A DNA stretch of 45,986 nucleotides from a virus. Where the stretch lies: IMG/VR virus record IMGVR_UViG_3300043395_002741, positions 1-45,986 of that record; one strand, given 5' to 3'. Position 1 is the stretch's first letter. Every line of letters begins with the position of its first letter. The position numbers were made by a program, and so were the translations under genes. Shown piece after piece: positions 14,257 to 43,020 of the stretch. The notes below the pieces were generated by a model, which did no database searches, was not told the DNA's origin, and was given only the letters and a program-made list of their open reading frames with translations.

Positions 14257-15869
14257 ATATCCAGCAGATCACGCTACGAAACTTCACGACGCACAACGCG
14301 CTGACCGTCACGCTGCCGCGCACCGGGGTCGTGCTGGTCACAGGCCCCAACGGGTCGGGCAAATCCTCGCTGATCGAGGCGGTTGCGACGACGATCTGGG
14401 GCAAGACGCTGCGGGGCACGACCCCGTGGCGTCCCGACGACGCAGGGCGTGTCGAGATCACCTCCGACGTGGTGTGCGCCACCCGCACGCGGAAGGGGGC
14501 GCGAGGTGGGGTGGAGTGGCACCGCCCCGGCGAGGCCCCCGTCGAGTGGGAAACGGCGACCAAAGCCCAGGACGCACTAGAGGCGGTCGTCGGCCCGCTG
14601 GAGGTCTGGCGGCGCACGTCGGTCCTGTCGAGCGCGGACGCGGCGACGTTCACACTGGCCGCAGATGCCGACCGCAAACGCCTGCTGGAGACGCTGCTCG
14701 GGCTGGAGCGGTTCGATCCCGCGCACGAGGCGGCACGCGCGGCACTCCGCAAAGCCGAGGCCGCACTCGCTGGTGCGGAGGCCGCCGTCGCGCGCGAGCA
14801 GGGCCGGGTGCAGGCTGCGGAGGCTGCGCTCGCCCGTGCCCAGGGGATCGCGCCCCCCGAGGCAGTCCCCGAACCACCCGCCGACGCCGAGGAGCAGATG
14901 CGCCGCCTGCGTCGGCAGTCCGACGAGGCCGCAGCCGAGGCTCGCTCGATCCTGTCGGGTGCGCGTGGGGACGGGGAGCGTGTGGGGGCCGCTCGCGCAG
15001 CCGCCGAGCAGGCCACCACACGCGCGCACCGGCTGGCGTGCGGCACCTGCCCCACCTGCGCCCAGACGATCCCACCCGCGCTGGTCGAGCGTCTGGCAGG
15101 CGAGGCAAACACCCTCACCGCCAGGGCGACCGCAGCCGAGCGTGCAGCCCGAGCCGCTGCCGCTGCCGCGCAGTCGCAGGCCGACGAACTGACCGAGGAA
15201 GCGTCCCAGCTTCAGCGGCGCGCGACCGACCTGCGTCAAGCCGTGACACGGGCAGCAGACGCCCGTGGGCACGCGCAGCGGGTCGCTGCCGCAGTCGGGG
15301 AGGCACAGGCCGCGCTCGCCTCTGCGCGGGCCTTCTGCGAGGCTGCACAGGCCCCGGTTGACGCTCTGCGCCGAGAGGTCGCGGAGATCACCGCAGCCGT
15401 CCAGGTGCTCGGCACGCGCGGGGTGCGCGCCCACGTCCTCGGGTCGGCCCTCGCCGGGGTTGAGGCTGCGGCCAACGAGTGGTTGCACCGAATCTGCGGG
15501 GAGCGGCTGCGCCTCTCCCTGTCGGCCAGTACGGAGCGCAAATCCGGGGCGGTGGCCGACGCAATCGCGCTGGAGGTCGTCGGGGCTGGCGGCGGGTACG
15601 GCTACCGCGCAGCCTCGGGTGGGGAACGGCGGCGCATCGACGTTGCCCTGCTGCTGGGGCTGGCCGAGGTCGCGCAGGCCGCGCACGGTCGCACGGGTGG
15701 GACGCTGTGGCTGGATGAGGCGTTCGACGCGCTGGACTCAGACGGGGTCGCTGCTGTATGCGGCGCGCTGTCCGAGCTGGCCGAGTCGCGGTGTGTCGTG
15801 GTGGTCACGCACTCCCCCGACGTGATCGGCAACCTGCGGCCCGCCCTGCGGGTCACGATGGGGACTTGA
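14253..15869 (+). CDS. SbcC/gp46-like (Rad50-type) recombination ATPase
   Basis: The ATPase partner of the SbcD-like nuclease, 538 residues. It has Walker A TGPNGSGKSS (30-39), two long Ala-rich coiled-coil arms (about 155-260 and 280-380), a zinc-hook apex CPTC (Cys266, Cys269), the ABC signature SGGER (455-459) and Walker B LWLDEAFD (485-492). It is short for an SbcC, like T4 gp46, because the coiled coils are short. Together with SbcD it should process DNA ends for recombination-dependent replication. The family call is firm. Confidence 0.92.
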   Translation: MNIQQITLRNFTTHNALTVTLPRTGVVLVTGPNGSGKSSLIEAVATTIWGKTLRGTTPWRPDDAGRVEITSDVVCATRTRKGARGGVEWHRPGEAPVEWETATKAQDALEAVVGPLEVWRRTSVLSSADAATFTLAADADRKRLLETLLGLERFDPAHEAARAALRKAEAALAGAEAAVAREQGRVQAAEAALARAQGIAPPEAVPEPPADAEEQMRRLRRQSDEAAAEARSILSGARGDGERVGAARAAAEQATTRAHRLACGTCPTCAQTIPPALVERLAGEANTLTARATAAERAARAAAAAAQSQADELTEEASQLQRRATDLRQAVTRAADARGHAQRVAAAVGEAQAALASARAFCEAAQAPVDALRREVAEITAAVQVLGTRGVRAHVLGSALAGVEAAANEWLHRICGERLRLSLSASTERKSGAVADAIALEVVGAGGGYGYRAASGGERRRIDVALLLGLAEVAQAAHGRTGGTLWLDEAFDALDSDGVAAVCGALSELAESRCVVVVTHSPDVIGNLRPALRVTMGT

Positions 15870-17230
15870 TGTCCACGCCTGCTGTAGTGGTGCCCACTGA
15901 GATCGTTCATCGGAGTCTTGCTGACTTGATTCCATATGCGAAGAACGCGCGAACGCACTCCGCGGACCAAGTTGCGAAAATCGCAAAGTCCATGCAAGAG
16001 TTTGGCTGGACGAACCCGGTTTTGATTGATGGGGAGAACGGCATCATCGCGGGGCACGGGCGCGTGCTCGCTGCGGAGACGCTGGGGCTTCAATCTGCCC
16101 CGTGCATCGAGCTGCGGCATCTGACAGAAGCGCAGCGGCGTGCGTATATCCTCGCGGACAACCAACTCGCGCTACTGTCTGACTGGGACGAAGCTCTGCT
16201 CGCGCAAGAGGTCGCACAAATCGCCGCGGCGGGGGGCTCGCCTGTTGACCTGGGGTTTGACCTTGGCTGGCTTGATTCCGTGCTGTCTCAGCCCGAGGAC
16301 CCGCAAGTCCCATCGAACGATCCAGACGCGGTTCCCGCACTCACCGTGACACCCGTAAGCCGCACGGGTGACGTGTGGGTTCTCGGTCCCCACCGCGTAA
16401 TGTGCGGGGACTCAACCGTTCAGTCCGACGTTGACACGCTGTTGTCTGGCACGCTGTGTGATGTGTGCTGGACAGACCCGCCGTACAATGTCGCGTACAA
16501 GGGGCGCGCTGGAACGATTGCAAACGACGACATGTCTGACGCCGCCTTCAATGACTTTCTCTTGCGCGCGTACACATGCATGTTCGCTGCGCTGCGCTCG
16601 GGGGGGGCAATATATGTCGCACACGCAGACACGGAAGGGTACGCATTCCGCTCGGGATTCGCGCGTGCGGGGTTCAAACTGGCCGGTTGTCTGGTTTGGA
16701 AGAAACAATCTCTAGTATTGGGCCGCTCCGACTATCAATGGATTCACGAACCGCTGCTTTACGGGTGGAAACCCGGCGCAGCGCATCAGTGGTTTGGTGG
16801 GCGAAAGCAGACGACAGTCCTCCCCGCAGACGTGCCTGGTGTTTTGGTAGACGACGCGGGGCGGTACACACTGCAAGTTGGCGACGACATCCTGGAGATC
16901 CACGGCCCTGTGTCCTTGACGACCATGCCGACATCGGTGGTCAGTCATGCAAAACCCGCGCGGAATGGCGAGCACCCCACAATGAAGCCCGTGGGTTTGA
17001 TTGAGCGAATGCTGCGGAACTCTGCCCGCGCTGGCGATGTCGTGCTTGATTTGTTTGGTGGCTCTGGCTCCACGCTGATTGCGGCGCACAACCAAAAAAT
17101 GGCCGCGCGGTTGATGGAGCTAGACCCGCGTTTCGTGGATGTAATTGTCCGTCGATGGCAGGAGTACACGGGTTTGCGGGCGCACCACGCACAGACTGGG
17201 CGCGCGTTTGATTCATCACTGGAGGGGTAA
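15869..17230 (+). CDS. ParB-like domain fused to an adenine/cytosine-N4 DNA methyltransferase
   Basis: A 453-residue fusion. Residues about 14-138 form a ParB/Srx-like domain with GIIAGHGRVLAA (58-69) and the following YILADNQL. Residues about 165-435 form a DNA methyltransferase with the catalytic DPPY (203-206) ahead of the AdoMet-binding DLFGGSGST (394-402), the beta-class motif order. It would methylate an exocyclic amino group in DNA, perhaps to guard phage DNA against host nucleases. No cognate restriction gene lies nearby. Codons are clearly less GC-rich than the neighbours, a sign of recent transfer. The start overlaps the SbcC stop by one base (TGATG). Confidence 0.9.
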   Translation: MSTPAVVVPTEIVHRSLADLIPYAKNARTHSADQVAKIAKSMQEFGWTNPVLIDGENGIIAGHGRVLAAETLGLQSAPCIELRHLTEAQRRAYILADNQLALLSDWDEALLAQEVAQIAAAGGSPVDLGFDLGWLDSVLSQPEDPQVPSNDPDAVPALTVTPVSRTGDVWVLGPHRVMCGDSTVQSDVDTLLSGTLCDVCWTDPPYNVAYKGRAGTIANDDMSDAAFNDFLLRAYTCMFAALRSGGAIYVAHADTEGYAFRSGFARAGFKLAGCLVWKKQSLVLGRSDYQWIHEPLLYGWKPGAAHQWFGGRKQTTVLPADVPGVLVDDAGRYTLQVGDDILEIHGPVSLTTMPTSVVSHAKPARNGEHPTMKPVGLIERMLRNSARAGDVVLDLFGGSGSTLIAAHNQKMAARLMELDPRFVDVIVRRWQEYTGLRAHHAQTGRAFDSSLEG

Positions 17231-18641: not shown

Positions 18642-20300
18642 CTACACGCCGCAGACCCCACCGACGCACCGCTCCTCGGTTTCCTCGTACACAACGCCTT
18701 CTTTGCCCGCGGCCTCACGGTAGGCTACTGGGGTGAGCGGCTGGCCCCCGCGCGCGCCGTCTGGGTAGACGGTGATCCCGCGCAGCCGGGGCAGATACCG
18801 CAGCAGGATCTCCCCGTAGATCGGCAGCAGGTCGGCGTTGTTTCCTGCCGACCCCCAGGGCGGAAGGTTGATCGTGCTGGAGATCGCCATGTCCACATAC
18901 TCCTGCACCCACGCTTGGAACGCAAGCCGCCGCTCCATGTCGAGGGCGAGCGTGGTGGCGTCCTCGATAGCGTCGGGGTCCACCCCCGCATCGACCAGAC
19001 GCTTCGCCGTGGGGTCCACGACGTACTGGTACTGCCACACGTTGTTCGGCCCGAGATACCGCCGCTTGTACGCGGCGCAGAAGATGGGTTCGATTCCCGT
19101 GGTCGTTTCTGCCAAAATCCCGATTGTGCCCGTGGGTGCAATCGCCCGCACCGCCACCGGGCGGGACAGGGAGTGCAGGTCGGCCCAGTGATCAGCCCAC
19201 GTCCGGGAGTCGTCTCGGTACACGGCGAGCCATTCCCCGAGGGCGGCGTCGGGCTGATAGCGTTTGCCACGCGCGAGCAGCCATTCGTGGAGTCCCATCA
19301 CCCCGAGGCCGAGGCGGCGGTTCTTGGCGCGTACCACGGCGACCCGATCATACGGTGTGTCCGAGTAGACGGTCCCCGCGAGCAGGAACCGCGTGGCGAT
19401 CCGCACCACCTCGCGCAGACGCTCGACCGACTCCACGCGCGCAAGGTTGATCGACCCCAGGTTGCACACGTCGCTGTCGTCCTCGCTGACGACCTCGGTG
19501 CAGGCGTTTCGCAGGGATTCTCGGCGCTTGCTGCCAAGGTTGATCGCAAAACCAGGCTCGCCGTGGCGAAACATCGCAGCCACCGTGGCGGCGTACACCC
19601 GGCGCGCCTGCTCGTGCTGTGGGTGCGCCTGGTCGGCCATCGCAGCAAAGAAATCGTCATCCAGCCCCACGCTGACGTTCGTCATGTCGAGCGGGGCATA
19701 TGCGTTGAAATCCTTGGCTTTCTGCGCCTTGATGTGCTCGGGCCAATCTTTCGCTGCCAGAAACTCGGGCACGTCGGGGTGCGACCAGACGAGGCCCGCC
19801 CAGATAGCCGAGCGGCGGTCGCCGCCCTGGCGAATCCCCCTGCCGACTTCGTTGATCATACGCATCAGCTCGACGGGGCCGCTCGCCACACCCCCGGTGC
19901 GACGAATCCTCGACCCGCGTGCGCGAACGTCCGAATACTCGACACCGATGCCAGCTCCCGTCTGGAGGGCGAGGGCGCATTTCGCCAACAGGTCGGCCCA
20001 ACCCTCGCGGGAGTCCTCGGCCCTAATCAAAGCGCAGTTATTTGTCTGGTGAAACTCTTTGCCCGACGCGTACAGATAGCGCCCACCCGGCAGGAACTCT
20101 CGGTTGGCAATCACTTCGGCAGTCTCGCGCACGGCATCGCTGTCGGGCGCGTACCCGAGCGCGCCGAGAACATGGGTCGCCACACGGATTGCCGTCTGAC
20201 CCCATTCGGTTTCCAGCAGGTTTCCTGCGTTGTCGCGCAGGGCGTATTTGTGCAGGTAGATGGAGCGCGCGAACGCGCTCATGGTGTCTTGTACTCGCAT
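18642..20300 (-). CDS. nrdJ: Class II (adenosylcobalamin-dependent) ribonucleotide reductase
   Basis: Makes deoxyribonucleotides for phage replication. It has 552 residues, reading from the ATG at 20300, which has GGAGG nine bases upstream; a longer open frame has no such site. Key residues: Cys89 in NNCAL and Cys279 in VCNLGSINL (redox pair), Asn265-x-Cys267-x-Glu269 in NACTE (radical and acid-base residues), PTGTIGILAETTTGIEP, and the C-terminal shuttle pair CVGGVC (Cys545, Cys550). No ATP cone and no NrdB or NrdG partner is visible, which fits class II. It is one of two minus-strand genes. Expression would need cobalamin from the host. Confidence 0.9.
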   Translation of the reverse strand: MRVQDTMSAFARSIYLHKYALRDNAGNLLETEWGQTAIRVATHVLGALGYAPDSDAVRETAEVIANREFLPGGRYLYASGKEFHQTNNCALIRAEDSREGWADLLAKCALALQTGAGIGVEYSDVRARGSRIRRTGGVASGPVELMRMINEVGRGIRQGGDRRSAIWAGLVWSHPDVPEFLAAKDWPEHIKAQKAKDFNAYAPLDMTNVSVGLDDDFFAAMADQAHPQHEQARRVYAATVAAMFRHGEPGFAINLGSKRRESLRNACTEVVSEDDSDVCNLGSINLARVESVERLREVVRIATRFLLAGTVYSDTPYDRVAVVRAKNRRLGLGVMGLHEWLLARGKRYQPDAALGEWLAVYRDDSRTWADHWADLHSLSRPVAVRAIAPTGTIGILAETTTGIEPIFCAAYKRRYLGPNNVWQYQYVVDPTAKRLVDAGVDPDAIEDATTLALDMERRLAFQAWVQEYVDMAISSTINLPPWGSAGNNADLLPIYGEILLRYLPRLRGITVYPDGARGGQPLTPVAYREAAGKEGVVYEETEERCVGGVCGV

Positions 20301-20316
20301 GTGGTGGTGCCTCCGA

Positions 20317-20380
20317 CCTCCCGCCGCGGGAGGGGGGCGCACCCTATCGCACGCGCACGCACCCCTGCCACGGGTGCGTG
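20317..20380. promoter_or_regulatory. Divergent intergenic region with two hairpins
   Basis: The 128-base gap between the ribonucleotide reductase start (20300, minus strand) and the gene at 20429 holds two perfect stems: 20317-20323 with 20327-20333, just upstream of the reductase ribosome-binding site, and 20356-20364 with 20372-20380. They may control reductase translation or separate divergent transcripts. The space is too short for a normal cobalamin riboswitch and no B12 box was found. Confidence 0.4.
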
Positions 20381-20428
20381 TCACGCCGTTGCGGGGGCAA
20401 GCGGCGGTGTGGTACACGCCCGCGCACC

Positions 20429-20668
20429 ATGCGCGAAATCCGCTTCTGGCACTTTGCTCTGTTGATCCTTGGTGTGTCCCTGTTCGCTGCGGGGTCGTGT
20501 ATCCGCCCCACCGCGTTCGACGGGGACGGTGCTGAGTACGCTGCGCGCCGAGACGCAGACGTGGCCCGTTGCCTGCGGTTCTGCCAGCAGGAGACGGCGC
20601 GGATTATCTGGTACGCAGACGGTGGGCAGGAGTGCGCCTGTATCGGTGGCGAGGCACTGGACCGATGA
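20429..20668 (+). CDS. Small membrane-anchored or lipoprotein-like protein
   Basis: A protein of 79 residues. Residues about 5-23 form a hydrophobic segment (FWHFALLILGVSLFAAGSC) ending in a Cys, so it is either a signal anchor or a weak lipobox (AAGSC). The rest is soluble, with four more Cys residues (CLRFC and CAC) that may form disulfides outside the membrane. It overlaps the thymidine kinase start by four bases. Function unknown. Confidence 0.65.
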   Translation: MREIRFWHFALLILGVSLFAAGSCIRPTAFDGDGAEYAARRDADVARCLRFCQQETARIIWYADGGQECACIGGEALDR

Positions 20669-21303
20669 CACTCGACGAGGACGTGATCGTGTATGTGACC
20701 CCGCCGCGCGCATCGCGGCCAACGCGCGGACAGGGTGGCGGGATGATCGAGGTGATTTGTGGGCCGATGTTCGCTGGAAAAAGCACCGAGCTGCTGCGCC
20801 GCGCGGAGCGTTTGCGCCGTGGCGGGCAGCGTGTGCTCGTCGTCTCCCCTGCGCTGGACACCCGCGCGGGCGCGGACGTGGTGCAGACACACGACGGGGC
20901 CACGCTGCCCTGCGTGCGCGTGGCCGGGGCCGAGGATCTGCGCGATGCCGTGATGACCCGGCTGGGTGAGATCGACGCCGTGTGCGTGGACGAGGTGCAG
21001 TTTTTCCCCCTCGCCGTGCTGACTGTCCTGCGGGAGATCGCGTGGTGCGGCGTGCGTGTGATCTGCGCGGGCCTCGACTTGGATTGGGCAGGTGAGCCGT
21101 TTCCGCTGACGATGCACCTCCTCGCCGTCGCGGAGAAGGTCAAGAAGCTGTCGGCGGTCTGCGCGTGCGGGGCTGACGCCGCGAAATCCTACCGACGCCA
21201 CGCCTCGACCGAGCAGGTGGTGGTCGGCGGGGCCGACGCCTACGAGGCCCGCTGCACCCGGTGCTGGGAGGACGGTCATGCCGCGCGCTCGGTCGCGTAC
21301 TGA
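20665..21303 (+). CDS. tdk: Thymidine kinase
   Basis: Phosphorylates thymidine for the dTTP pool. It has the P-loop CGPMFAGKST (32-41), the Walker B-like VCVDEVQFF, the lid-like CGVRVICAGLDLDW, and two zinc pairs (CACG and CTRC) typical of type II thymidine kinases. The ATG at 20665 overlaps the previous stop, giving 212 residues. An internal ATG at 20743, with AGGGTGG before it, would give 186 residues, nearer the usual family length, so either start is possible. With the reductase it forms a nucleotide-supply pair. Confidence 0.9.
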   Translation: MTLDEDVIVYVTPPRASRPTRGQGGGMIEVICGPMFAGKSTELLRRAERLRRGGQRVLVVSPALDTRAGADVVQTHDGATLPCVRVAGAEDLRDAVMTRLGEIDAVCVDEVQFFPLAVLTVLREIAWCGVRVICAGLDLDWAGEPFPLTMHLLAVAEKVKKLSAVCACGADAAKSYRRHASTEQVVVGGADAYEARCTRCWEDGHAARSVAY

Positions 21304-25807: not shown

Positions 25808-25891
25808 AGACACCCCGATAGACTCCCAATCCGGGTGTCGTCGGGGTGTCTCGCTACCCTACGCACCCCCCGATTGGGTGGTCATCGGGGG
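25808..25891 (+). terminator. Two hairpins ahead of the packaging genes
   Basis: An 11-bp perfect stem (25808-25818 with 25841-25851, 22-nt loop) is followed by an 8-bp stem (25867-25874 with 25884-25891). Neither has a T-run. Together they separate the small-gene region from the terminase genes and are the likely end of early transcription. The rest of this 182-base gap holds only the ribosome-binding site TAGGAGG. Confidence 0.6.
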
Positions 25892-25931
25892 TTGCACGCC
25901 CACCACGACCCCCGCTACGGTAGGAGGCATC

Positions 25932-26645
25932 ATGGCAATCACCAAAATCTCACCGGAAATCTACACGATCCTGCTGGACGCCTACCGCAACGCTCCAGCC
26001 AGCCATCGCGCTGCTGCGCGTGCGGCACAGTGCTCTGAGAAAACAGCGACCCGCGCTTGGTCTGTCGGTTGGACTGAGACGCACGGTTGGGCACGCCCAA
26101 TCCGTGAGGTGCTGGAGGCTGAAACGCTAGAAGCCCGCGCCCAGATGCTCCAACGCGAGCAGGACGAGCGCATCGCTGCCGCCCGCAGGGAGATCGAGGC
26201 CCGCCGGGAAGCCGCGCGCAAAGCGGAGGAGGAGCGCGAGGCAGGACGGCGGCAGGCGGTCGAGGCCCGCACGCAGGAAGGGCAGATGGTGCGCCTCTCC
26301 AGGGCCAACACCTTGGGCTTGCTCGGCTCGCTGGCGAAGCTCCAGCCTGCCGTCTCCCACCTTGCCGACCAGATCCGCTCCGCAATCCTGTCCGGGGCCG
26401 TCGATCCCTCCGACGCGGCCCCGTTGCTCAAGACGGTGTCGAGCGTGGTGCGTGACGCGATCACCGCCTCGCAGATCGTCGTGGAGCTGGAGCGGCTGCA
26501 TGTGGGCAACCCGACCGCCATCATCGGGGTGCAGTCGATGGAGATGTCCGCGGACGAGGCGGTCAGAGAGATCGAGGACGCCAAGGCGGCACTGGACCGC
26601 GCGCGTGCGTTGGGGTTGTCCGTGCTCGCCGGGGGTGCGTCGTGA
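25932..26645 (+). CDS. Putative terminase small subunit
   Basis: A protein of 237 residues preceded by TAGGAGG. The N-terminus (about 8-45) looks like a helix-turn-helix (APASHRAAARAAQCSEKTATRAW), the middle (about 60-130) is a charged coiled coil rich in Arg and Glu, and the C-terminus is helical. A DNA-binding N-terminal domain, an oligomerising coiled coil and a place upstream of the large terminase are the usual features of a small terminase, which recognises the packaging site. The call rests on position and architecture, not on a diagnostic motif. Confidence 0.65.
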   Translation: MAITKISPEIYTILLDAYRNAPASHRAAARAAQCSEKTATRAWSVGWTETHGWARPIREVLEAETLEARAQMLQREQDERIAAARREIEARREAARKAEEEREAGRRQAVEARTQEGQMVRLSRANTLGLLGSLAKLQPAVSHLADQIRSAILSGAVDPSDAAPLLKTVSSVVRDAITASQIVVELERLHVGNPTAIIGVQSMEMSADEAVREIEDAKAALDRARALGLSVLAGGAS

Positions 26646-26983: not shown

Positions 26984-27423
26984 CACTCACCGAGGCTGAG
27001 TTGGAGTTCGATAGGTTCGTCGCCACCCGCCGCGCGCAGGGCCGGGTGACCTACGGGCAGGGTCTGGAGCACACGGACGCGCGGTGGAACTGGGAGCGCA
27101 TGGCGTTGGAGGAGTTGGCCGACGCCTGCCAATACCTCGTTGCGCAGACGATTCGCTTGCAATACGCGCTGGACGAGGCCCGTGGGAACCACATCATGTT
27201 CGTGACAGGGTTGTGCAAAACCCTGGGAGTTTCGGAGTTGGACGCCGCCGGGGTGCTGTCGCGGGTGCAGTCGTTGACCCACGCCGCCGCCGACGTGCGC
27301 GAGCGCGCCGCCCGTGAAATCGACTGCGTGCGCGGGGCTGGCTGCACCGACCCGTCGTGCGACTACGCTGCGACCGCGCGCCGGATCCGACGACTGCCGA
27401 TTGGCGGGGAGGGTGGATGCTAG
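26980..27423 (+). CDS. Hypothetical protein, possible MazG-like fold
   Basis: A protein of 147 residues starting at a GTG overlapping the previous stop. The segment WNWERMALEELADACQYLVAQ resembles the first metal-binding helix (ExxE/D pattern) of all-alpha NTP pyrophosphatases of the MazG group. The second metal helix is not obvious, so the relation is uncertain. A Cys cluster (CVRGAGCTDPSC) follows near the C-terminus. It overlaps the large terminase start by seven bases. Confidence 0.6.
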   Translation: MTLTEAELEFDRFVATRRAQGRVTYGQGLEHTDARWNWERMALEELADACQYLVAQTIRLQYALDEARGNHIMFVTGLCKTLGVSELDAAGVLSRVQSLTHAAADVRERAAREIDCVRGAGCTDPSCDYAATARRIRRLPIGGEGGC

Positions 27424-29612
27424 GCATCCCGCACCAACGCCGTGAGCAGGTGTCCCGCGACATCGAGATGCTGGAACTGCGACAGCTCGCAGCGCAGGCA
27501 CGCGCAGCCCGAATCGTGCTGGCCCGCCACGACAGCGCGGAGCTGTCCGCCCTGGTGATGCGGGACGAACGCTCCCCGACGTTCACCTCGATGGTCCGCC
27601 CCACCCCCGAGCAGCAGCGTTGGCACGCGCTCGCGGGCAAGCACGACCGGTTGGTGATCTGGGCGCACGACGAGTCGGGGCGCACGGCGTTCGCTGCGGG
27701 GCGCATCCTGTGGGAGTTGGGGCACAACCCGGACTTTCGGGTGCTGGTGGTGGGACGCACGCTGCCCCTTGCCCAGATTGCTGCCCGCCTCGCTGCCCGC
27801 TACCTCGACGTGTCGCTGGAACTGCGGTCGGTGTTCCCCGGCATCCAACTAGAAACGCCCGCCACCTCCCGCACGGTCGCGGTCAAGGGGCGGCGCGGGG
27901 ACGCGCCCAACATTCAATGTGTCGGGGTGGGCGGGTCGATCCCTGTGCGGTGCGCGTTCGACCTCGTGGTGCTGGACGACTGCGTATCGGACGAGCACGC
28001 CCGCACCCCGCAGAGTCGCGCCGCCGTGTGGGAGTGGCTGCGCGGGTCGGTGCTGTCGTCCCTGTCCGACCGGGGACGTGTGCTCGCACTGGGCGTGCCG
28101 CTGCACCCAGAGGACCCGATCTCTCGTCTCGCGGCCCTGCCCGAGTACACCGTCCACCGCACGCCGATCCTCGACGCACAGGGCAACTCGGTGTGGCCTG
28201 CTCGCTGGCCGATGGAACGAATCGAGGCCCGCCGCAGGGACACCCCGGCGAACGTGTGGGCGCGTCGGATGCTGTGCCTGCCGACCAAGGCCGAATCCCT
28301 GCTCGGGGTGTCGGAACCGCTCGGCACGTTCATGGAAAGGGTGAGCGGCAACGTGCTGCGCGCCCCTCGGCACCTCGGGCCGCTGCTGTCGCTGCTGGAG
28401 CGTGCGCGGACGGAGCCTGTGCGCGCCGTCGTGTCGGCCCCTCCGCAGCACGGCAAGACCGAGCTGCTGATGCACTCGCTTGCCTGGCATCTCGCGCAAG
28501 ACCCGGAGCGCACCCACGCATATGTGACGTATGCAGGCACGCTCGCCAGCGACCGCTCACGCAAAATCCGCTCGATCACCACCGAGGCCGGGATCGAGCT
28601 CCCCGAGAAGCCAGGGGGGATGCGGCGGTGGCGCACCGCTCGCGGTGGCGGGCTGATTGCAGAAGGCGTGCGCGGGCAGCTCACGGGCAAAAGCGTAGAC
28701 GGTTTGTTGATTGTGGACGACCCCTACAAGTCCCGCGTCGAGGCCGAGTCCGTGGTGCAGCGCGAGCAGGTCTGGGGACTGTTCGCGGACGCTGCGTTGA
28801 CCCGTTTGCACCCGCGGGCCTCGGCAATCGTCGTTCACACCCGCTGGCACGAGGACGACCTCGCTGGGCGTCTTGGCAAGCAGGGTTGGGAGGTCGTCAA
28901 CCTACCCGCCGTGCTGGAGGACGGCTCGCCCCTGTGGCCCGAGCGGTACTCGGTGGACGACCTCATTCAACGGCGCGCGGCAATCGGGGAGTACTCGTGG
29001 TCCTCGCTCTACATGGGCCACCCCCGCCCCCGAGGCGGTGCGGTATTCCGCAACGTGGTCAGTTACGACCCGCAGATTCACGTTGTGCGGGCGAACCAGT
29101 GGCGAATCGCCATCGGCATCGACCTTGCCTACACGGCGCGCACCAGGGCCGACTACTCCTCGGCTGTGGTCATGGCGACCGGGGAGGACGGGCGTTGCTA
29201 CGTCCTGGAGGTGGTGCGACAGCAGGTCGAGGCCCCGCAGTTCGCCACGACCCTGCGCGCGCTGCGGCAGCGGTACGCGGGCGCGCTCCCCCGGTGGTAC
29301 GCAGCCGGGACCGAGCAGGGCGTCGTCCAGCTCATGCAGTCGATGGGTGTGGGGATCGAGGCCCTGCCGCCGAAAGGCGACAAGTTCTTGCGGGCGCAGC
29401 CTGTCGCGGCTGCGTGGAACACCGGGCGAATCCTCGTGCCGACAAATGCCTCGTGGGCCACCCCGTTCGTGGATGAGGTGCTGGCGTTCACCGGGATTGC
29501 GGACGCCCACGACGACCAGGTGGACGCGCTCGCGGCTGCATACGACGTGCTCTACCCACAGACAACAGGCGGCACCGTGCAACGGCTGACCGTGGACTTG
29601 AGGAGGCGGTAA
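27417..29612 (+). CDS. terL: Large terminase with an extra degenerate N-terminal ATPase copy
   Basis: The DNA-packaging motor and nuclease, 731 residues, much longer than a usual TerL. Residues about 320-731 form a complete TerL: Walker A APPQHGKT (341-348), Walker B LLIVDDP (430-436), the coupling segment HTRWHEDDLAGRL (474-486), and a nuclease with acidic residues Asp569 (IGIDLAY), Asp579 and the pair in AHDDQVDA (697-704). Residues about 65-290 follow the same order in degenerate form: HDESGRT (84-90) for Walker A with Lys replaced by Arg, DLVVLDD (182-188), a GVPLHPEDPISRL (226-238) counterpart of HTRWHEDDLAGRL, then SVWPARW matching SPLWPER. This looks like internal duplication or fusion. 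Confidence 0.93.
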   Translation: MLGIPHQRREQVSRDIEMLELRQLAAQARAARIVLARHDSAELSALVMRDERSPTFTSMVRPTPEQQRWHALAGKHDRLVIWAHDESGRTAFAAGRILWELGHNPDFRVLVVGRTLPLAQIAARLAARYLDVSLELRSVFPGIQLETPATSRTVAVKGRRGDAPNIQCVGVGGSIPVRCAFDLVVLDDCVSDEHARTPQSRAAVWEWLRGSVLSSLSDRGRVLALGVPLHPEDPISRLAALPEYTVHRTPILDAQGNSVWPARWPMERIEARRRDTPANVWARRMLCLPTKAESLLGVSEPLGTFMERVSGNVLRAPRHLGPLLSLLERARTEPVRAVVSAPPQHGKTELLMHSLAWHLAQDPERTHAYVTYAGTLASDRSRKIRSITTEAGIELPEKPGGMRRWRTARGGGLIAEGVRGQLTGKSVDGLLIVDDPYKSRVEAESVVQREQVWGLFADAALTRLHPRASAIVVHTRWHEDDLAGRLGKQGWEVVNLPAVLEDGSPLWPERYSVDDLIQRRAAIGEYSWSSLYMGHPRPRGGAVFRNVVSYDPQIHVVRANQWRIAIGIDLAYTARTRADYSSAVVMATGEDGRCYVLEVVRQQVEAPQFATTLRALRQRYAGALPRWYAAGTEQGVVQLMQSMGVGIEALPPKGDKFLRAQPVAAAWNTGRILVPTNASWATPFVDEVLAFTGIADAHDDQVDALAAAYDVLYPQTTGGTVQRLTVDLRRR

Positions 29613-29669: not shown

Positions 29670-31091
29670 CTACTCCACCACCACGCTGCCCAGATAGGTC
29701 GGGTGCGCCGGTGTGCATTTCTGCCCTCGGTCGAACGCGCGGGAGTCGGTGTAGGTGGCCGAGAGCGTTTCGTCCTCGGCGTGCGGGCGGGCGATCACAA
29801 CGGTCACGGTCACGGGGGCCGCAGCAGTCGGGCGCATGTAGTTCGTCGCCACGCACACGCTGTAGGTGCCCGATACGGGGCTAACCTCCCAATAGATGTT
29901 CTCGGGGCCAGTTCCCGACGTGTCGTCGCGGTCCTGCCGCCCACCGTCTGCGGTCTGCTGCTGCCACCCAATCGAGGAACCGCGCGGGGTGGTCACCCAC
30001 ACGTCGATGTCGCCGGGGCGCGACCACGTCGAGGAGAAGCGGAGCTGCCCCGATCCGACGCAGACGCCCGCCACGCACGCCTGCCCGGTCCCGCATTGGA
30101 TGCCGCACGCGCCGCAGTTCGCCACGTCCTCGGCGGGCTGCACGCACCCGGTATCGCAGATGAGGCCCGTGCAGGTCGGGATAAGCGTGCAGACGCGCCC
30201 GTCGCCCTCGTACCCATCGAGGCACGCGCAGGAGAACGCCCCCGGGGTGTTGCTGCACGCGGCGTTGGCTCCGCACGCAGGCTCGGGGGCAGCGCACTCG
30301 TTCACATCCCCGCAGAGTCCAGCCCCGCAGGCGTACCCAGCCCCGCAGACACCACACGCGCCTCCGCACTGGTACGCCCCGCAGTCGGGAGAGCAGACCA
30401 GCACCGCGCCGTCGTCCTCGGACGCACCGAGCAGCCCGTCGTGGTTGTCGTCGGCCCCGTAGGCGAGCCGCACACCACCGCGCGAGCACACGTCGCCGGG
30501 GGTCACGGCCTCCTGTCGGAAGGAGGCTGCGGCCCCGCGCTCTCCTGTGGATCCATCGACACCGTCACGTCCGTTGGTCCCGTCCTTCCCCGCGGCTCCC
30601 TGCGCCCCCGGTGTGCCAGCAGGCCCAGCGGGACCAGCAGGACCACCCGCTCCTGTGGCCCCATCGCGACCATCCACGCCAGCAGGACCAGCAACTCCGG
30701 GTGCGCCGTTGGCTCCCGCGGGGCCAGTCTCTCCGCGCGCGCCGTCCGCTCCAGCAGGGCCAGGGCTACCATCCACGCCGTCCACGCCATCGCGTCCATC
30801 GACCCCGTCCTTCCCTGCCGCACCCGTCGCACCCTGCGGACCCGCGGCTCCTGTCTCGCCCTGCGGCCCAGTCGCCCCAGGGCACAGCGGGACCACCACG
30901 TCCACCTCAGAGTCCGACAGCACCTTGTCTTTGTCGTCGTCTAGCCCGATCTCGACCACCGTCCCTCCCGCACACTCCGCAGGGCGTGTGCGGTGCAGCG
31001 TGCTGGCCCCCGACATCACCTTGGCGGTGATCGGGTCGCCGTCGCACGCAGCAAGAACGACTAAAGACGAAAGTATGATTCCCCGCAGCAT
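29670..31091 (-). CDS. Collagen-like, EGF-containing lipoprotein
   Basis: A cell-type surface protein of 473 residues on the minus strand. GGAGG lies just upstream of the ATG at 31091. The signal peptide ends in the lipobox LAAC (Cys16). Around 40-70 and 200-235 are C..G.D.N..G.L...E..VC segments of the kind that flank collagen repeats. Residues about 71-186 are Gly-X-Y repeats ([13 protein letters not shown]), 262-301 is an EGF-like module (DVNECA to [12 protein letters not shown]), 322-345 is a NCGACG Cys repeat, and 348-470 resembles a YfaP/DUF2135 beta domain ([24 protein letters not shown]). It is not a typical virion protein. Likely a moron gene that decorates the infected cell; superinfection exclusion is a guess. 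Confidence 0.88.
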
Positions 31092-31602
31092 ATTGCCTCC
31101 ACCGACGCACCTGCGCCGCGCGCTTGTCTTAGCCGCGCTCGTGCTGTCGCCTCCCGTTGTGGCCGACGACGACAGCCCGGGGGAGATCGGGGCGTTCATC
31201 GAGATCTACCTGCCCCCGCCAAAACCCTCCGAGGCTGAGACGCCCCCACCCGTCGAGGCGACACCGCCGCAAACGGACGCGGGCGCGTTGAAGGCACCGC
31301 AACCGCAGCAACCCCCACCCGAGCAGCAAACGCCGCCCGCAGCCCCGCCAGCGGCCCCCGTTGCCCCCACGCCTGCGCTCGGCCAGCACGCAGAGGTGAC
31401 GCTGGTCCGGCTGACGGGGTGGGGCTGGTCGCGGAAGCAAGCCCGCGAGGCCCTCGACCGGGTGGTGGCGCAGCTCGTGGCGCAGGGGATGCCGCGGGAT
31501 CGAATCGAGGTCGTGACCGAGACGCAGCGGGGACGCCCCCGCGTGCGCGTGGACGTGGTGCGTGTGACGGAGGTGCCCGATGCTGTGCCAGATACCAAGT
31601 GA
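31075..31602 (+). CDS. Secreted Pro-rich protein, possible lysis-cassette member
   Basis: A protein of 175 residues with a signal peptide ([18 protein letters not shown] then DDD), a long Pro/Ala/Gln linker (about 40-105) and a charged helical C-terminal domain ([20 protein letters not shown], then [21 protein letters not shown]). It is probably periplasmic. It starts inside the 5' end of the lipoprotein gene on the other strand; the ribosome-binding site is weak, and a TTG at 31093 is an alternative. The position before a TM coiled-coil protein and a peptidase suggests a lysis role such as a spanin-like function, without direct motif support. Confidence 0.65.
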
Positions 31603-32347
31603 CCTGCTCGATGCCTCCGGGTGCGTAAAGACGGGCGACCTTCAATCGCTGGCCCTGTCGGGGTGCGAGATCCCGCAGGGCCTCTGCCTCACCGTCGAGG
31701 AGCCGCAGGCTCCACGGCGCGCACAGGAGCACCCGCTTATGCCCGATGTCGCCCCCGCCCTTTCCGCCCCGTCGCTGACCCCCGGTGGCGTGCCTGTCGC
31801 TGCCGCCCCCGTGCAGACGCAGGCCGTCGTCGCCCAACCCGCCCCCGCTCCCGCCGACCCCACCGCGCAGCTCATGGCCCTCGCGGGGCAGAAGGACGTG
31901 TCCCCAATGGCGGTCGTTGCAGGCGTTGCCGCCCTCGCAGGGTCGGGCGTCGTCCTCAAGTTCGCCAAGGATCTGTTCCAAAGCCGCAAGGAGACTGCGG
32001 AAAAGAAGGCGGAACAGGAATACGAGTTGAAGAAGATGGAGTTGGAGCAGAAGTCCAAGCAGGGCGAGGACCAGCACCAGGCGTGCGGGGTCGCCCGCGC
32101 GGCGCTGGAGGCCCGAGTCGTTGCTGCCGAGCAGCGTGCGGGTGCGCTCGACGCCCGCCTCGCCTCGACCGAGCAGTCCCTCGCGGACCTCGGCAAGCGG
32201 GCGCAGGCCGCGCTCGCCACCATCGAGGAGTCGTCGCAGGACGCCGCCAAGGTGGAAGCCCGCCTCACCGAGAAAGCCGACGCGCTCTCCAAGCGCATCA
32301 CCAAACTCGAAACCGCTGCCAAGAAGGCTGCGCCCAAGGGGAAATGA
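31580..32347 (+). CDS. Single-pass membrane coiled-coil protein, putative holin or spanin component
   Basis: A protein of 255 residues. GGAGG six bases before 31580 supports this start; an internal ATG at 31739 with AGGAG could give a shorter form. The order is a Cys-containing N-terminus, an Ala/Pro linker, one membrane segment ([21 protein letters not shown], starting near residue 113), a highly charged helix and a long coiled coil with a Lys-rich end. It lies next to the peptidase gene. A holin or inner-membrane spanin is plausible from topology; no family is recognised. Confidence 0.68.
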
Positions 32348-32348
32348 C

Positions 32349-32900
32349 ATGGCCGATCTGATGATGGACTGCCCGCGCTGCTGGGGACGTAGCAAGTCGT
32401 GCGGGCTGTGCAAGGGCGCGGGCAAGGTGCCCGACGAGCAGTTGTCCCCGCATTTCCGCCTGTCCGAGATGCTGAACAGCGGGACCGCTCGCACCAAGGG
32501 CATCCCGAACGAACCCGACGCCGAGGTGTTGGCAAACCTGCGCCTGTTGTGTGTTGAGGCGTTGGAGCCGATCCGCGCCCTCGTCGGCCCGCTCAAGATC
32601 AACAGCGGGTATCGCTCCGACCTTGTGAACCAGGCGGTAGGCGGGTCCACGACGAGCGCGCACTCCTACGGCCTCGCCGCCGACCTCAACCCGGTGAAGG
32701 GGACGTGGAAGGAACTGATGGACAAGGTGATCGCGGCCAAGATCCCGCTGGACCAGATCATCTTTGAGCACACCTGGGTCCACGTCGGCTTGCTGCACCC
32801 GACCAAGAAGAACAAGCGCGGCGACAAGCTGGCGATGTTCAAGGTCGGCGGCAAGACGACCTATGAAGCGTACAACCCGAACGACGCGCGAATCGCCTAG
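32349..32900 (+). CDS. M15-type peptidase endolysin with N-terminal DnaJ-like zinc motif
   Basis: A 183-residue peptidoglycan peptidase expected to lyse the cell. Residues 8-25 are CPRCWGRSKSCGLCKGAG, a CxxCxG pair like the DnaJ zinc repeats, unusual on an endolysin. Residues about 35-160 form the M15 (D-Ala-D-Ala carboxypeptidase-like) domain: NSGYRS, then SAHSYGLAADL (His105, Asp112) and WVHVGL (His145), the three zinc ligands. The ATG follows the previous stop by one base. No signal peptide is visible, so a holin should release it. Confidence 0.9.
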   Translation: MADLMMDCPRCWGRSKSCGLCKGAGKVPDEQLSPHFRLSEMLNSGTARTKGIPNEPDAEVLANLRLLCVEALEPIRALVGPLKINSGYRSDLVNQAVGGSTTSAHSYGLAADLNPVKGTWKELMDKVIAAKIPLDQIIFEHTWVHVGLLHPTKKNKRGDKLAMFKVGGKTTYEAYNPNDARIA

Positions 32901-32915
32901 CAATCGAGGTGTGGC

Positions 32916-33005
32916 ATGGGCATCGCCTGGGTGGTAGTCGTGACCCTCCTGCTCGCCTCCGTGACGGTGGTGGGCGTTCTCCAACCAAAGGACCGCGACG
33001 AATGA
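32916..33005 (+). CDS. 29-residue membrane miniprotein
   Basis: A very small gene between the endolysin and the next small gene. The protein is one hydrophobic helix (MGIAWVVVVTLLLASVTVVG) with a charged tail QPKDRDE, so it would sit N-out, C-in or the reverse as a single-span peptide. GAGGTGTGGC precedes the ATG, and its stop overlaps the next ATG (ATGA), as in most neighbours. It may be a holin or a lysis regulator; the size is small for either. Confidence 0.55.
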   Translation: MGIAWVVVVTLLLASVTVVGVLQPKDRDE

Positions 33006-33199
33006 CCAAGGCGATGCGCCGCCGCAGGGCGAAGCACCACTACAACGAAGCCATCAAACTCGGGGTGCGGGCCTGCGCGGCAGAGCAGCGCGGCCCGCGG
33101 TGGTATGACACCCTCCCTGGTGATTGGCGGCTAGAGGCGATGGCCGTGCGTGCGGTGCGCCGACACTGGAATCTGCTGCGCCGCCTGGGGGATATGTGA
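33002..33199 (+). CDS. Small basic protein before portal
   Basis: A protein of 65 residues, Arg/Lys-rich (TKAMRRRRAKHHYNEA) and helical. Its first codons overlap the 29-residue gene, and its stop overlaps the portal ATG by one base. DNA-binding or head-associated by charge and place, as inference only. Confidence 0.62.
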   Translation: MTKAMRRRRAKHHYNEAIKLGVRACAAEQRGPRWYDTLPGDWRLEAMAVRAVRRHWNLLRRLGDM

Positions 33200-35058
33200 T
33201 GTCGAGCGGGACCGTGGTGGATTTCAGCGTGTTCCAAAAGATCTTCGGCAAAGTGCTCGGGGGTGGGGCGGTACACGACCAGCCTGCGGTCCTGTCGGAG
33301 ATCCGACTCAAGGGGTTGTCCCCTCGGCAGCAGCGGCTCAACGCAGCGTGGGCGGTCTACCGCTGCGAGGGGTATTCTTCCTGCCGCGTGGATTGGGACG
33401 GCGGGCAGGCGATCAGCCAGATGGAATCCGAGGCGGTTCGCTCGGGGGCGTTTATTCCCCCGGGCTTCTATGACGCGGGGGCGATGCTGCCCCTGCGGTA
33501 TCGCCGCCCCTCGGCCCCCTACGCACTCGGGCGCGTGATCGTGGACCGTTTCACCTCGCTGCTGTTCTCGGATCAGCGGCACCCCCGCGTGCATGTCGAG
33601 GACGACGAGCAGACCGACGATTTCGTCGGTGCGTTGATTGAGGGATCGCGCTTCTGGGCTGCGTGGATGCAGGCCCGGATGATGGGTGGCGCGCAGGGTA
33701 CTGCCTGCGTCGGGTTCCAGTTCGTGAACGGAAAGCCCGTGCTGGAGGTCCACGACCCCCGCTGGTGTACCCCGACGTTCCGCGACCGCCACACCTGGGA
33801 GTTGTCCCGGCTGGAGATCCTGTACCAGTACCCGCGCGAGGTGCTGGACCCCGAGTCGGGCCTCGTGCGCGAGGTGCCGTTCTGGTATCGCCGTCTGATC
33901 GACGCGCAGCGTGACGTGGTGTTCAAGTCGATCCCCGTCGAGCAGGGCCTCCCGGTGTGGGAGGTCGAGTCCGAGGTGCAGCACGGCCTCGGGGAGTGCC
34001 CCGCGGTCTGGGTGCAGAACACCCCCGTGTTGGACGACATCGACGGCGACCCGGATTGCCACGGCGCGTTTGAGATGATCCACGCCATCGACATGCTGCT
34101 CGCGCAGGCGCAGACGGGCACGATTGCGAACGCCGACCCGACGCTGGTGATCTCCACCAATGCCGACCTCCCGCCCGACTTGGCGAAGGGATCCCGCGCA
34201 CCGATCAAGTTGCCGAGCGACGGGCGCGCGGAATACCTGGAGCTGGAGGGCGTTGGTGCCAAGTCGGCAAGCGAGTTGGCCGACCTGTACCGCCGCCGCG
34301 TTCTGGAGGTGACGAGCTGCGTGCTGGAGGACGGCACGGGGACTGCTGCCCGCACCGCCACCGAGATCGAGCGCGCCCACGCTGCGATGTTTGCCCGCGC
34401 CGACATGCTGCGCGAGCAATACACCGAGCGCGGGATCAAGCCGCTGCTGCACAAGATGCTCCGCGCGGCCCGCATGGTGTCCGAGGCCCGCCCCACCGAG
34501 GACGGTGGCGTGGTGCGCGGCGAGGTGCTGCTCGCCCCCAAGTTGATCCGAAACGCTGCGGGGCGGGTGATCGAGAAGCGCCGCCGCGAACCGGGGACCG
34601 GGGAGATCCTGCGCGTGGCGTGGCCCCGGTACACCGAACCGACGCTGGAGGAGGCCAAGCTCGCGGTCGAGACTGCGGTCATGGCCTTGTCGGGCAAGAT
34701 CGTGGACGACACCGCTGCGGTTGCGCTGGTTGCCCCGTACTTTGCCGAGGAGGACTCCAAGGGACTGCTCGACCGGGTGCGCGGTGCCGAGACGGCGCGC
34801 ACGCTCGCGCTGGACTCTGCGGCGTCGGGCCTCGCCCCCGGGGAGTCGCTGGGCGGCACGGAACCCCTGCCCCCTGTGGTCGCTCCGAGCGCGCCGCTGA
34901 ACGGGGCGCAGATCACGGCCCTGCTCGACATCGTGCAGCAGACCGCGCGAGGGGAACTCGACCCCGAGGTCGCGGTGCGGACAATCACGCTGTCGTTCCC
35001 CGGCATCGGTGAGGACGAAGCCCGCGCGCTGGTGGCGAAGCAGGAGCTCCCCGAGTGA
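33199..35058 (+). CDS. Portal protein
   Basis: The dodecameric channel through which DNA enters the head, 619 residues. The N-terminal half has the usual wing/clip mix of strands and helices (RFTSLLFSDQRHPRVHVED; WDGGQAISQMESE). The stem-like region lies around 290-410 (HGAFEMIHAIDMLLAQAQ, KSASELADLYRRRVLEVTSC, RTATEIERAHAAMFARADML), as in SPP1-type portals. Its position, after the terminase and before a MuF protein, supports the call. A C-terminal extension (about 500-619) is Ala/Pro-rich. The start overlaps the previous stop (TGATG). Confidence 0.88.
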   Translation: MSSGTVVDFSVFQKIFGKVLGGGAVHDQPAVLSEIRLKGLSPRQQRLNAAWAVYRCEGYSSCRVDWDGGQAISQMESEAVRSGAFIPPGFYDAGAMLPLRYRRPSAPYALGRVIVDRFTSLLFSDQRHPRVHVEDDEQTDDFVGALIEGSRFWAAWMQARMMGGAQGTACVGFQFVNGKPVLEVHDPRWCTPTFRDRHTWELSRLEILYQYPREVLDPESGLVREVPFWYRRLIDAQRDVVFKSIPVEQGLPVWEVESEVQHGLGECPAVWVQNTPVLDDIDGDPDCHGAFEMIHAIDMLLAQAQTGTIANADPTLVISTNADLPPDLAKGSRAPIKLPSDGRAEYLELEGVGAKSASELADLYRRRVLEVTSCVLEDGTGTAARTATEIERAHAAMFARADMLREQYTERGIKPLLHKMLRAARMVSEARPTEDGGVVRGEVLLAPKLIRNAAGRVIEKRRREPGTGEILRVAWPRYTEPTLEEAKLAVETAVMALSGKIVDDTAAVALVAPYFAEEDSKGLLDRVRGAETARTLALDSAASGLAPGESLGGTEPLPPVVAPSAPLNGAQITALLDIVQQTARGELDPEVAVRTITLSFPGIGEDEARALVAKQELPE

Positions 35059-35492
35059 TCCTTGCCATCGACTTTGACGGGACGCTGGTCGAGCCTGTCG
35101 CGTTCGCGGACGTGACGACCCCGCTGCGCCTCATCCCTGGGGCGCGCGAGGCGTTGCAGTCGATCAAGCGGGCAGGGCACGTCGTCATCGTCTACTCGGC
35201 GCGTGCAAATCGCGCCCTGCGGGTATCTCCGCAGCTCGACCCGCTGGTGCGCCTCGGACTGAGGCAGGTCAACGACGCTGCGTGGCTGGCTGCGCGTCCG
35301 CTCCACCAAGCGCGGTTCGACGCGATGCTTAGGTTCTGCGACCGCGAGCTGCGCGGCCTCGTGGACGTGGTGGACGACGGCGAGCAGGGCAAACCTATCG
35401 CGGACGTGTACCTGGACGACCGCGCCCTGCGATACGGACACGGGCACGACGGCAACCTGTGGAGCGACATCGCTCTGCACTACGGTGTGTGA
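35055..35492 (+). CDS. HAD-like phosphohydrolase
   Basis: A 145-residue HAD-superfamily protein. Motif I is DFDGTL (Asp6, Asp8) and later motifs include VYSARANR and ADVYLDDRAL. It could be a nucleotide or small-phosphate phosphatase. The GTG start overlaps the portal stop (GTGA). HAD proteins near head genes are known in phages but their role is usually unclear. Family assignment is firm; the substrate is unknown. Confidence 0.85.
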   Translation: MILAIDFDGTLVEPVAFADVTTPLRLIPGAREALQSIKRAGHVVIVYSARANRALRVSPQLDPLVRLGLRQVNDAAWLAARPLHQARFDAMLRFCDRELRGLVDVVDDGEQGKPIADVYLDDRALRYGHGHDGNLWSDIALHYGV

Positions 35493-41604: not shown

Positions 41605-43020
41605 ATGGCCGATTTCAGCGTGATCGCACAGACTCCCGTCGTGCGCGCTCTTGTCCAGGAAAACCTGTTGCAGCGGGCTTTCCACGATTCTCTGTTCCCC
41701 CGTATGCTGTTCCGCGGCGAGGCCGAGGTCAGCGAGTGGAACGGCAACCTGGGCGACACCATGATTTTCAGCGGTGTTGGCTTGATGCCCAAGTCCGCGA
41801 AGCCCCTCGCCCCGACCGAGGATCCGCTCCCCCAGACGTTCGCCGCCGAGCAGTGGTCGAGCCAACTCAATATGTACGCTGGTTCGATTGACACCCACAT
41901 GCCCACCAGCGCGAACGCCATCGCTGACCTGTTCCTCCGCAACGCCCAGCAGCTGGGCCTCATGGCGGCGCAGTCGGTGAACACCCTCGCCCGTGACCGC
42001 ATGTACAACGCGGCGATGTCGGGCAGCACCGTTCACGACAGCGCGTCTCCCGTGACGGGCACCAGCATCGCCGTCAAGCGGTTGAACGGTCTGACCAAGG
42101 CGCGCCGCCCCGGCGTGTCGGGTGCCTCGCAGGTGCGTTTCGAGGCCGTGAGCCCCGGCAACCCGCTGCCCGTGCTCGTGTGGACGGGATCGGCCTACGC
42201 CTCGCGGAACATCGTGGGCTACACCAGCGTCGTGGCTGGTGACGAGATCGGACCGGGAACGATCACGCTTGACAGCTCGGTTACCGCGGGTGCTCGCGGT
42301 GCTGTGCTCGCCTACGACCGCAGCGTGCAGATCTACGCCGACGCGACCGCGACCGACACCATCGACTCGCTGACCGCGACCGACGTGCTGACGTTCAAGC
42401 AGATCCGCAGCGCGGTGTCGCGTTTCCGCATCCAGAACGTGCCCGAGTTCGCTGACGGGACGTTCCACATGCACTTGGATCCCGTGTCGGAGAGCCAGCT
42501 CTACGATACGACCGAGTTCCAGCGGCTCAACACGTCGATCCCCGATTATTACATGTACAAGCAGTTTGCCATTGGCACCCTGCTGGGCGTGAGCTTCTTC
42601 CGCAACACCGAGGCTCCTCTCCCCGAGACTGTCACGGGCGGCGGCACCAGCAACGCCACCGAGTCGTTCTCGCAGGAAGATCCGTTCGGAGGCGAGATCT
42701 GGAACGCTGCGGACGTGAAAATCCACCGCGCCCTGCTCGTGGGCCAGAAGGGTCTGCACGAGTACTACCAGAATCCCGCCCTGTACCTGTCCGACGCCGG
42801 GCTGAATGGCAAGATGGGGTCGTTCTCGATCACCAACAACGGTATCGAGGTGTTCGCCGACCGAATCTCGCTGGTGCTGCGCGCCCCGTTGAACCGCCTC
42901 CAGGACCAGGTGACCGCCACCTACAAGTACGTCGGCGATTTCGTGGTTCGCACCGACGCCTCGGTGGGTGACGCTGCTCGGTACAAGCGCGTGTGTTCGA
43001 TTGCCCACGCGGGCGAGTAA
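41605..43020 (+). CDS. Major capsid protein
   Basis: A 471-residue head subunit, by far the likeliest capsid gene from its position after the scaffold. AGGAGG lies six bases before the ATG. The sequence has a helical N-arm (PVVRALVQENLLQRAFHD), a beta-rich body and conserved-looking segments such as HMHLDPVSESQLYD, YMYKQFAIGTLLGVSF and FSITNNGIEVFADRISLVLR. The order suggests an HK97-fold capsid of the N4-gp56-like type, with no obvious propeptide. The fold subtype is inference; the role is firm. Confidence 0.9.
   Translation: MADFSVIAQTPVVRALVQENLLQRAFHDSLFPRMLFRGEAEVSEWNGNLGDTMIFSGVGLMPKSAKPLAPTEDPLPQTFAAEQWSSQLNMYAGSIDTHMPTSANAIADLFLRNAQQLGLMAAQSVNTLARDRMYNAAMSGSTVHDSASPVTGTSIAVKRLNGLTKARRPGVSGASQVRFEAVSPGNPLPVLVWTGSAYASRNIVGYTSVVAGDEIGPGTITLDSSVTAGARGAVLAYDRSVQIYADATATDTIDSLTATDVLTFKQIRSAVSRFRIQNVPEFADGTFHMHLDPVSESQLYDTTEFQRLNTSIPDYYMYKQFAIGTLLGVSFFRNTEAPLPETVTGGGTSNATESFSQEDPFGGEIWNAADVKIHRALLVGQKGLHEYYQNPALYLSDAGLNGKMGSFSITNNGIEVFADRISLVLRAPLNRLQDQVTATYKYVGDFVVRTDASVGDAARYKRVCSIAHAGE

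Follow-up and report, generated by a model that had tools for sequence, protein, structure and literature searches.

A phage of an uncultured group encodes a large terminase (TerL) in which a degenerate ATPase domain is fused in front of an intact motor protein. The gene lies at 27417..29612 (+) of IMG/VR virus record IMGVR_UViG_3300043395_002741, whose 45,986 nucleotides were analyzed as a whole (hereafter the window), and its 731-residue product comprises, in order, a degenerate ATPase, an active ATPase, and a nuclease. An old TerL ATPase domain is fused before a complete TerL, and the chances appear about evenly balanced that it serves there as a pseudo-ATPase, adding a tier to the motor. 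In the accepted picture, a terminase motor is a homomeric ring whose subunits each combine an ATPase domain with a nuclease domain (vestigial in some cases), and an extra ATPase tier would alter this two-tier (ATPase and nuclease) ring. A conserved fused pseudo-ATPase would, if true, amount to a natural experiment showing what share of the ring has to hydrolyze ATP, and would inform how inactive domains aid DNA grip and ring coordination and how dead enzyme domains turn structural. The effects of a removable extra tier on force, processivity, and termination would be measurable.

The open reading frame starts with ATG, contains no internal stops, and has a coding-type third-position GC content (GC3 0.85). 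It begins before the preceding gene has ended, and a Shine-Dalgarno sequence (GGAGG, 27408..27412, +) was assigned from the context of the ATG. A short form holding the second copy alone, made from an internal start, was considered and rejected: Met285 and Met306 are available, and a convincing Shine-Dalgarno sequence is absent at both. The initial annotation had described the C-terminal region as a complete TerL, and residues ~300–731 are indeed a complete large terminase with ATPase and nuclease. Pfam placed Terminase_6N at residues 340–544 and Terminase_6C at 566–709 (E=3e-9), and this part by itself matched PHROG_38 (terminase large subunit) with E=1e-80. The intact ATPase domain (residues 300–545, 28314..29051, +), assigned from Terminase_6N and invariant Walker residues, contains Walker A APPQHGKT (residues 341–348, 28437..28460, +) and Walker B LLIVDDP (residues 430–436, 28704..28724, +). 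Across 28 aligned sequences, Walker A Lys347 and Walker B Asp434/Asp435 are invariant, as are Asp569, Asp579, Asp699, Asp700, and Asp703 of the RNase H-like nuclease domain (residues 566–709, 29112..29543, +; assigned from Terminase_6C and these acidic residues). With its Walker A/B and nuclease acids intact, the second copy is a normal PHROG_38-type terminase (Terminase_6N plus Terminase_6C). Unlike the aligned single-copy members, which have one ATPase and roughly 430–520 aa, the full protein carries an extra degenerate ATPase in front.

A Pfam search of the N-terminal part gave no match. PHROG_38 matched residues 22–287 (E=6.9e-32) through the same profile region as the C-terminal copy. We compared profiles of five N-terminal copies and 30 active TerLs using hhalign, and the resulting match (probability 98.6, E=7.7e-16, 201 columns) indicates a similarity far beyond chance. 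The repeated motif order initially noticed by eye survived this profile–profile alignment, with each named pair in register: HDESGRT/PPQHGKT, LVVLDD/LLIVDDP, VWEW/VWGL, HPEDPISRL/HEDDLAGRL, and SVWPARW/SPLWPERY. The best solved sequence relatives of the first copy were the PhiV-1 and T7 terminases (PhiV-1 TerL 8dgc, E=1e-4). In the full-length model, a monomer with pTM 0.52 in which the mutual placement of domains lies outside the prediction, both copies follow a common order of elements: strand, Walker A helix, strand, helix, strand, Walker B strand, long helix, strand, short helix, strand, and two lid helices. This model informs the first copy almost only from tandem proteins, because single-copy rows align to the second. 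A separate AlphaFold model of residues 1–305, whose alignment included single-copy relatives too, reached pLDDT 81 and pTM 0.80. Its N-terminal domain matched PhiV-1 TerL 8dgc first among PDB folds (TM 0.73), followed by the P74-26, HK97, T4, and D6E terminases, in agreement with the terminase-type ASCE fold that the repeated motifs had led the annotation to expect. The second ATPase starts at the point where the nuclease of an ordinary TerL would begin. Profiles and models together indicate that the first copy is a TerL ATPase domain, with core and lid, lacking the nuclease. It is closest in sequence and predicted fold to T7-like TerL (DNA maturase B; PhiV-1 8dgc), with which it shares an LGTP-type motif III, but unlike these proteins, which combine a single active ATPase with a nuclease, it has neither the Walker A Lys nor a nuclease.

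The degenerate domain follows a poorly conserved helical tail (residues 1–64, 27417..27608, +; helices 6–38 and 40–52 in the model of residues 1–305) that is 22–38% identical between the two distant lineages. The domain itself spans residues 65–290 (27609..28286, +), and a linker of about 10 residues (~290–300, 28284..28316, +), placed by low pLDDT (<50 for residues 278–298 in the full-length model), connects the two ATPase copies. Of the boundaries proposed initially, that of the first copy (about 65–290) was retained, and that of the second ATPase was shifted from 335–535 to about 300–545.

The Walker A motif of the first copy, WAHDESGRT (residues 82–90, 27660..27686, +), carries Arg89 in place of Lys and an invariant Asp85 in the loop. 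The initially reported Lys-to-Arg change recurs in 5/5 distinct tandem proteins as WAHD[EQ]SGR[TS], with the invariant Asp four residues before the Arg. At this position, Lys was found in 93/93 TerL ATPase matches that covered it (loci then in the sample). The first copy lacks the Walker A lysine expected of an active ATPase and retains the Walker B acids in a Walker B-like DLVVLDD (residues 182–188, 27960..27980, +), where D187 and D188 are invariant. Motif III keeps its His and Asp, and in the window the sensor-like motif has Val instead of Thr. A lambda-type deviant Walker A, with Lys early in the loop, was rejected, as the loop holds no Lys at all. In HK97, the Walker A substitution K60A abolishes both ATPase activity and packaging (PMC9410871). 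Segments picked from known motifs (Walker A, Walker B, and motif III) are conserved above the remainder of the N-terminal copy (25/32 versus 81/194 identical positions, p=2e-4). Judged by its sequence, the first copy likely does not hydrolyze ATP and is a pseudo-ATPase. Because conservation is higher in the pocket than elsewhere in the domain, the first copy could conceivably bind nucleotide without turning it over, and the conserved pocket together with the Walker B acids would also permit slow ATPase activity. Regarding the annotated pseudo-ATPase joined to the motor, homology, predicted fold, loss of the Lys, and the intact motifs of the second copy uphold a degenerate copy fused to an intact motor; the pseudo-ATPase character is the part deduced from sequence, and the altered motor stoichiometry or regulation that the annotation proposed would be a hypothetical consequence.

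The same fusion, with the same Lys-to-Arg change, occurs in syntenic positions in six further IMG/VR contigs from several metagenomes. L002 and L003 are identical in this region, L004 and L007 encode an identical protein, and the tandem proteins comprise five distinct sequences in three lineages including the window, the other two being 84% and ~57% identical to it. First copies share 78% and ~47% identity among lineages (about 45–50% for the distant ones), compared with 92% and 74% for the second ATPase, and the N-terminal copy changes 2–3 times faster than the motor copy. Its dN/dS was 0.32 between the window and L002 and 0.10–0.20 inside the L004 group; values against distant lineages (0.57–0.67) are uninformative, as dS is near saturation. 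These patterns indicate purifying selection on the N-terminal copy, and its maintenance suggests that the phage uses it. Between L006 and L004, the ATPase copies are 96–99% identical and the nuclease domain 82%, as would result from an exchange of the nuclease end by recombination.

A fused second ATPase was seen in no other phage terminase examined. The tandem occurred in 6/248 related TerL loci from IMG/VR, all inside this clade, in a sample drawn with several queries, biased toward their relatives, and with a few loci representing the same contig twice. In this sample, the search for one- and two-copy homologues envisaged by the initial annotation showed the tandem in this clade only, with a single-copy protein, L009, as the nearest relative outside. 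The first 80 loci contained no unfused gene for the first copy. Among the matching places listed from 50,697 phage records there was no tandem TerL: in only five records of named phages does the match reach 80% of the query or more, and the listed matches with high coverage all span <1.4 kb, corresponding to one ATPase domain matched twice. Two scans of bacterial and archaeal genomes, with sensitivity limited by a pattern step, likewise yielded no tandem homologues, and a search of the open-licence literature turned up no description of a tandem or pseudo-ATPase TerL. BFVD contains several very long TerLs (820–1160 aa), which are likely due to inteins and may include a second, unrelated tandem.

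The single-copy TerL of L009 is 57% identical to the second copy, and the second copies cluster with it in the tree. The first copies branch apart from the single-copy relatives as a single deep clade (100/98) with long branches, and the two ATPase copies share ~24% identity. In AU tests on a tree that took in T7-like rows, a clade uniting N- and C-terminal copies was rejected (p=0.0006), and one uniting both copies with the single-copy sister L009, which would reflect an origin shortly before the L009 split, was not rejected (p=0.056), although long branches limit the test. Derivation of the first copy from the second by a recent internal duplication was rejected on the former result (p=0.0006). 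The simple recent tandem duplication implied by the initial annotation is doubtful and probably wrong, because the copies are only ~24% identical and their sister relation is rejected. By these comparisons the first copy is old and divergent, and it could be an ancient duplicate that evolved fast or a fragment derived from a different terminase.

F1 alpha/beta and double-ring AAA+ proteins such as NSF and p97 pair a hydrolyzing ring or subunit with a supporting ATPase-fold partner that is less active or inactive. The tandem TerL would resemble these in working principle only, as they belong to other families and terminase rings are pentameric. In our proposed mechanism, the second copy would be the working motor and nuclease, and the first copy, having lost the basic P-loop residues for hydrolysis, would act as a pseudo-ATPase. 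Five chains would stack as three tiers, with a pseudo-ATPase ring at the DNA entry, the active ATPase ring in the middle, and the nuclease ring at the portal. This stacking is proposed because the first copy ends after its lid and because of the arrangement in HK97, in which the nuclease ring is turned toward the portal and lies under it, with the N-terminal ATPases below that ring (PMC10359639). From the HK97 orientation and the short linker, we infer by analogy that the pentameric motor carries an extra non-hydrolyzing tier where DNA enters. Such a tier would make the DNA channel longer and could be a passive DNA grip, a ring-stabilizing clamp, or a docking face for the small terminase. In phi29, the vestigial nuclease still binds DNA and its tier was kept after catalysis was lost, so that gp16 likewise retains a degenerate terminase domain in the motor (PMC7672431). 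Unlike in phi29, where the nuclease degenerated, here a degenerate ATPase domain was added. More tentatively, and with chances somewhat below even, we hypothesize a three-tier motor in which a pseudo-ATPase pentamer, linked subunit by subunit to the hydrolyzing ring, grips the entering DNA and sets how the ring is assembled, how it keeps hold of DNA, or how its subunits fire in turn.

Alternatively, the first copy could bind ATP and hydrolyze it very slowly, forming a nucleotide-dependent regulatory ring (an initiation or termination switch) and not a dead structure. We regard this as unlikely, albeit worth serious weight: the Walker B Asp-Asp is invariant, GR[TS] is retained, and the motif segments are significantly more conserved than the rest. 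In other P-loop ATPases, moreover, a Lys-to-Arg change often leaves nucleotide binding in place and blocks turnover. Against such a switch, the acidic Asp85 and Glu/Gln86 occupy positions where active TerLs have Pro/Gln/Arg, the loop offers no other basic residue, and the sensor-like Thr is replaced by Val in the window.

A role mainly in recognition, with the first copy docking the small terminase or marking packaging starts without forming a ring on DNA, is less likely again. A candidate small terminase is encoded at 25878..26645 (+), proposed from its position and conservation; it has an HTH-like N-terminus by eye and a charged helical middle and matched no named family, and counterparts precede terL in the L002/L003, L004/L007, and L006 contigs. 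Its product is unlike the HTH protein upstream of terL in single-copy L009, and the position of the first copy would be on the DNA-entry side. The 2–3 times faster evolution of the N-terminal copy would also suit a partner-matching module. However, a separate small-terminase candidate already exists, and a recognition module would have no evident reason to keep an ATPase fold.

Avs-type defence binds TerL, and the first copy might be a decoy or shield against such host terminase sensors. Its closest structural match, PhiV-1 terminase 8dgc, was solved in complex with Avs3, and the N-terminal copy evolves fast, but a fused decoy would be recognized itself and likeness to 8dgc is expected of any T7-like ATPase domain, which makes this reading very improbable. 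Slightly less credible still, and disfavoured, is a roleless remnant, left when a terminase fragment in decay was fused by chance: the catalytic Lys is lost and evolution is faster than in the second copy, but frame and motifs are kept over lineages ~45–50% identical in the domain, dN/dS is well below 1 in close pairs, and the motif segments are preferentially conserved. An assembly or sequencing chimera, conceivable for a window that is a single contig, is refuted by six other contigs, drawn from several metagenomes, that show the same fusion with synteny, and has a negligible probability.

The carriers of the tandem TerL are a small group of uncultured phages. A portal protein gene (33124..35058, +; PHROG_104, E=2.5e-7) is kept downstream of terL in the tandem contigs and is followed by head genes, among them the major head protein at 41605. 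The portal had two matches, both distant, in the 50,697 phage records, which therefore hold no close cultured member of the group. Beside it, a gene at 35055–35492, kept in the tandem group, matched a PHROG annotated as phosphoheptose isomerase (E=2e-13) and showed weak similarity to a HAD-type hydrolase. The interval between terL and portal (29670–33100 in the window) varies in content between contigs. Adjoining terL, 29670–31199 (-) encodes a lipoprotein-like product (LAACDGD) with collagen repeats (PF01391, 2e-17), calcium-binding EGF (4e-9), and DUF7151; this collagen/EGF gene lies downstream of terL in the window, L002, and single-copy L009. Elsewhere in the window, 15758–17230 encodes a DNA methyltransferase (PHROG_498, E=8e-157) to which a ParB-like domain is fused at the N-terminus. 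Ribonucleotide reductase lies between terL and portal in L005 and L008 and at 18642–20417 (-) in the window, where 20569–21303 encodes a thymidine kinase (PF00265, 9e-48); together, the two enzymes suggest phage-carried nucleotide metabolism.
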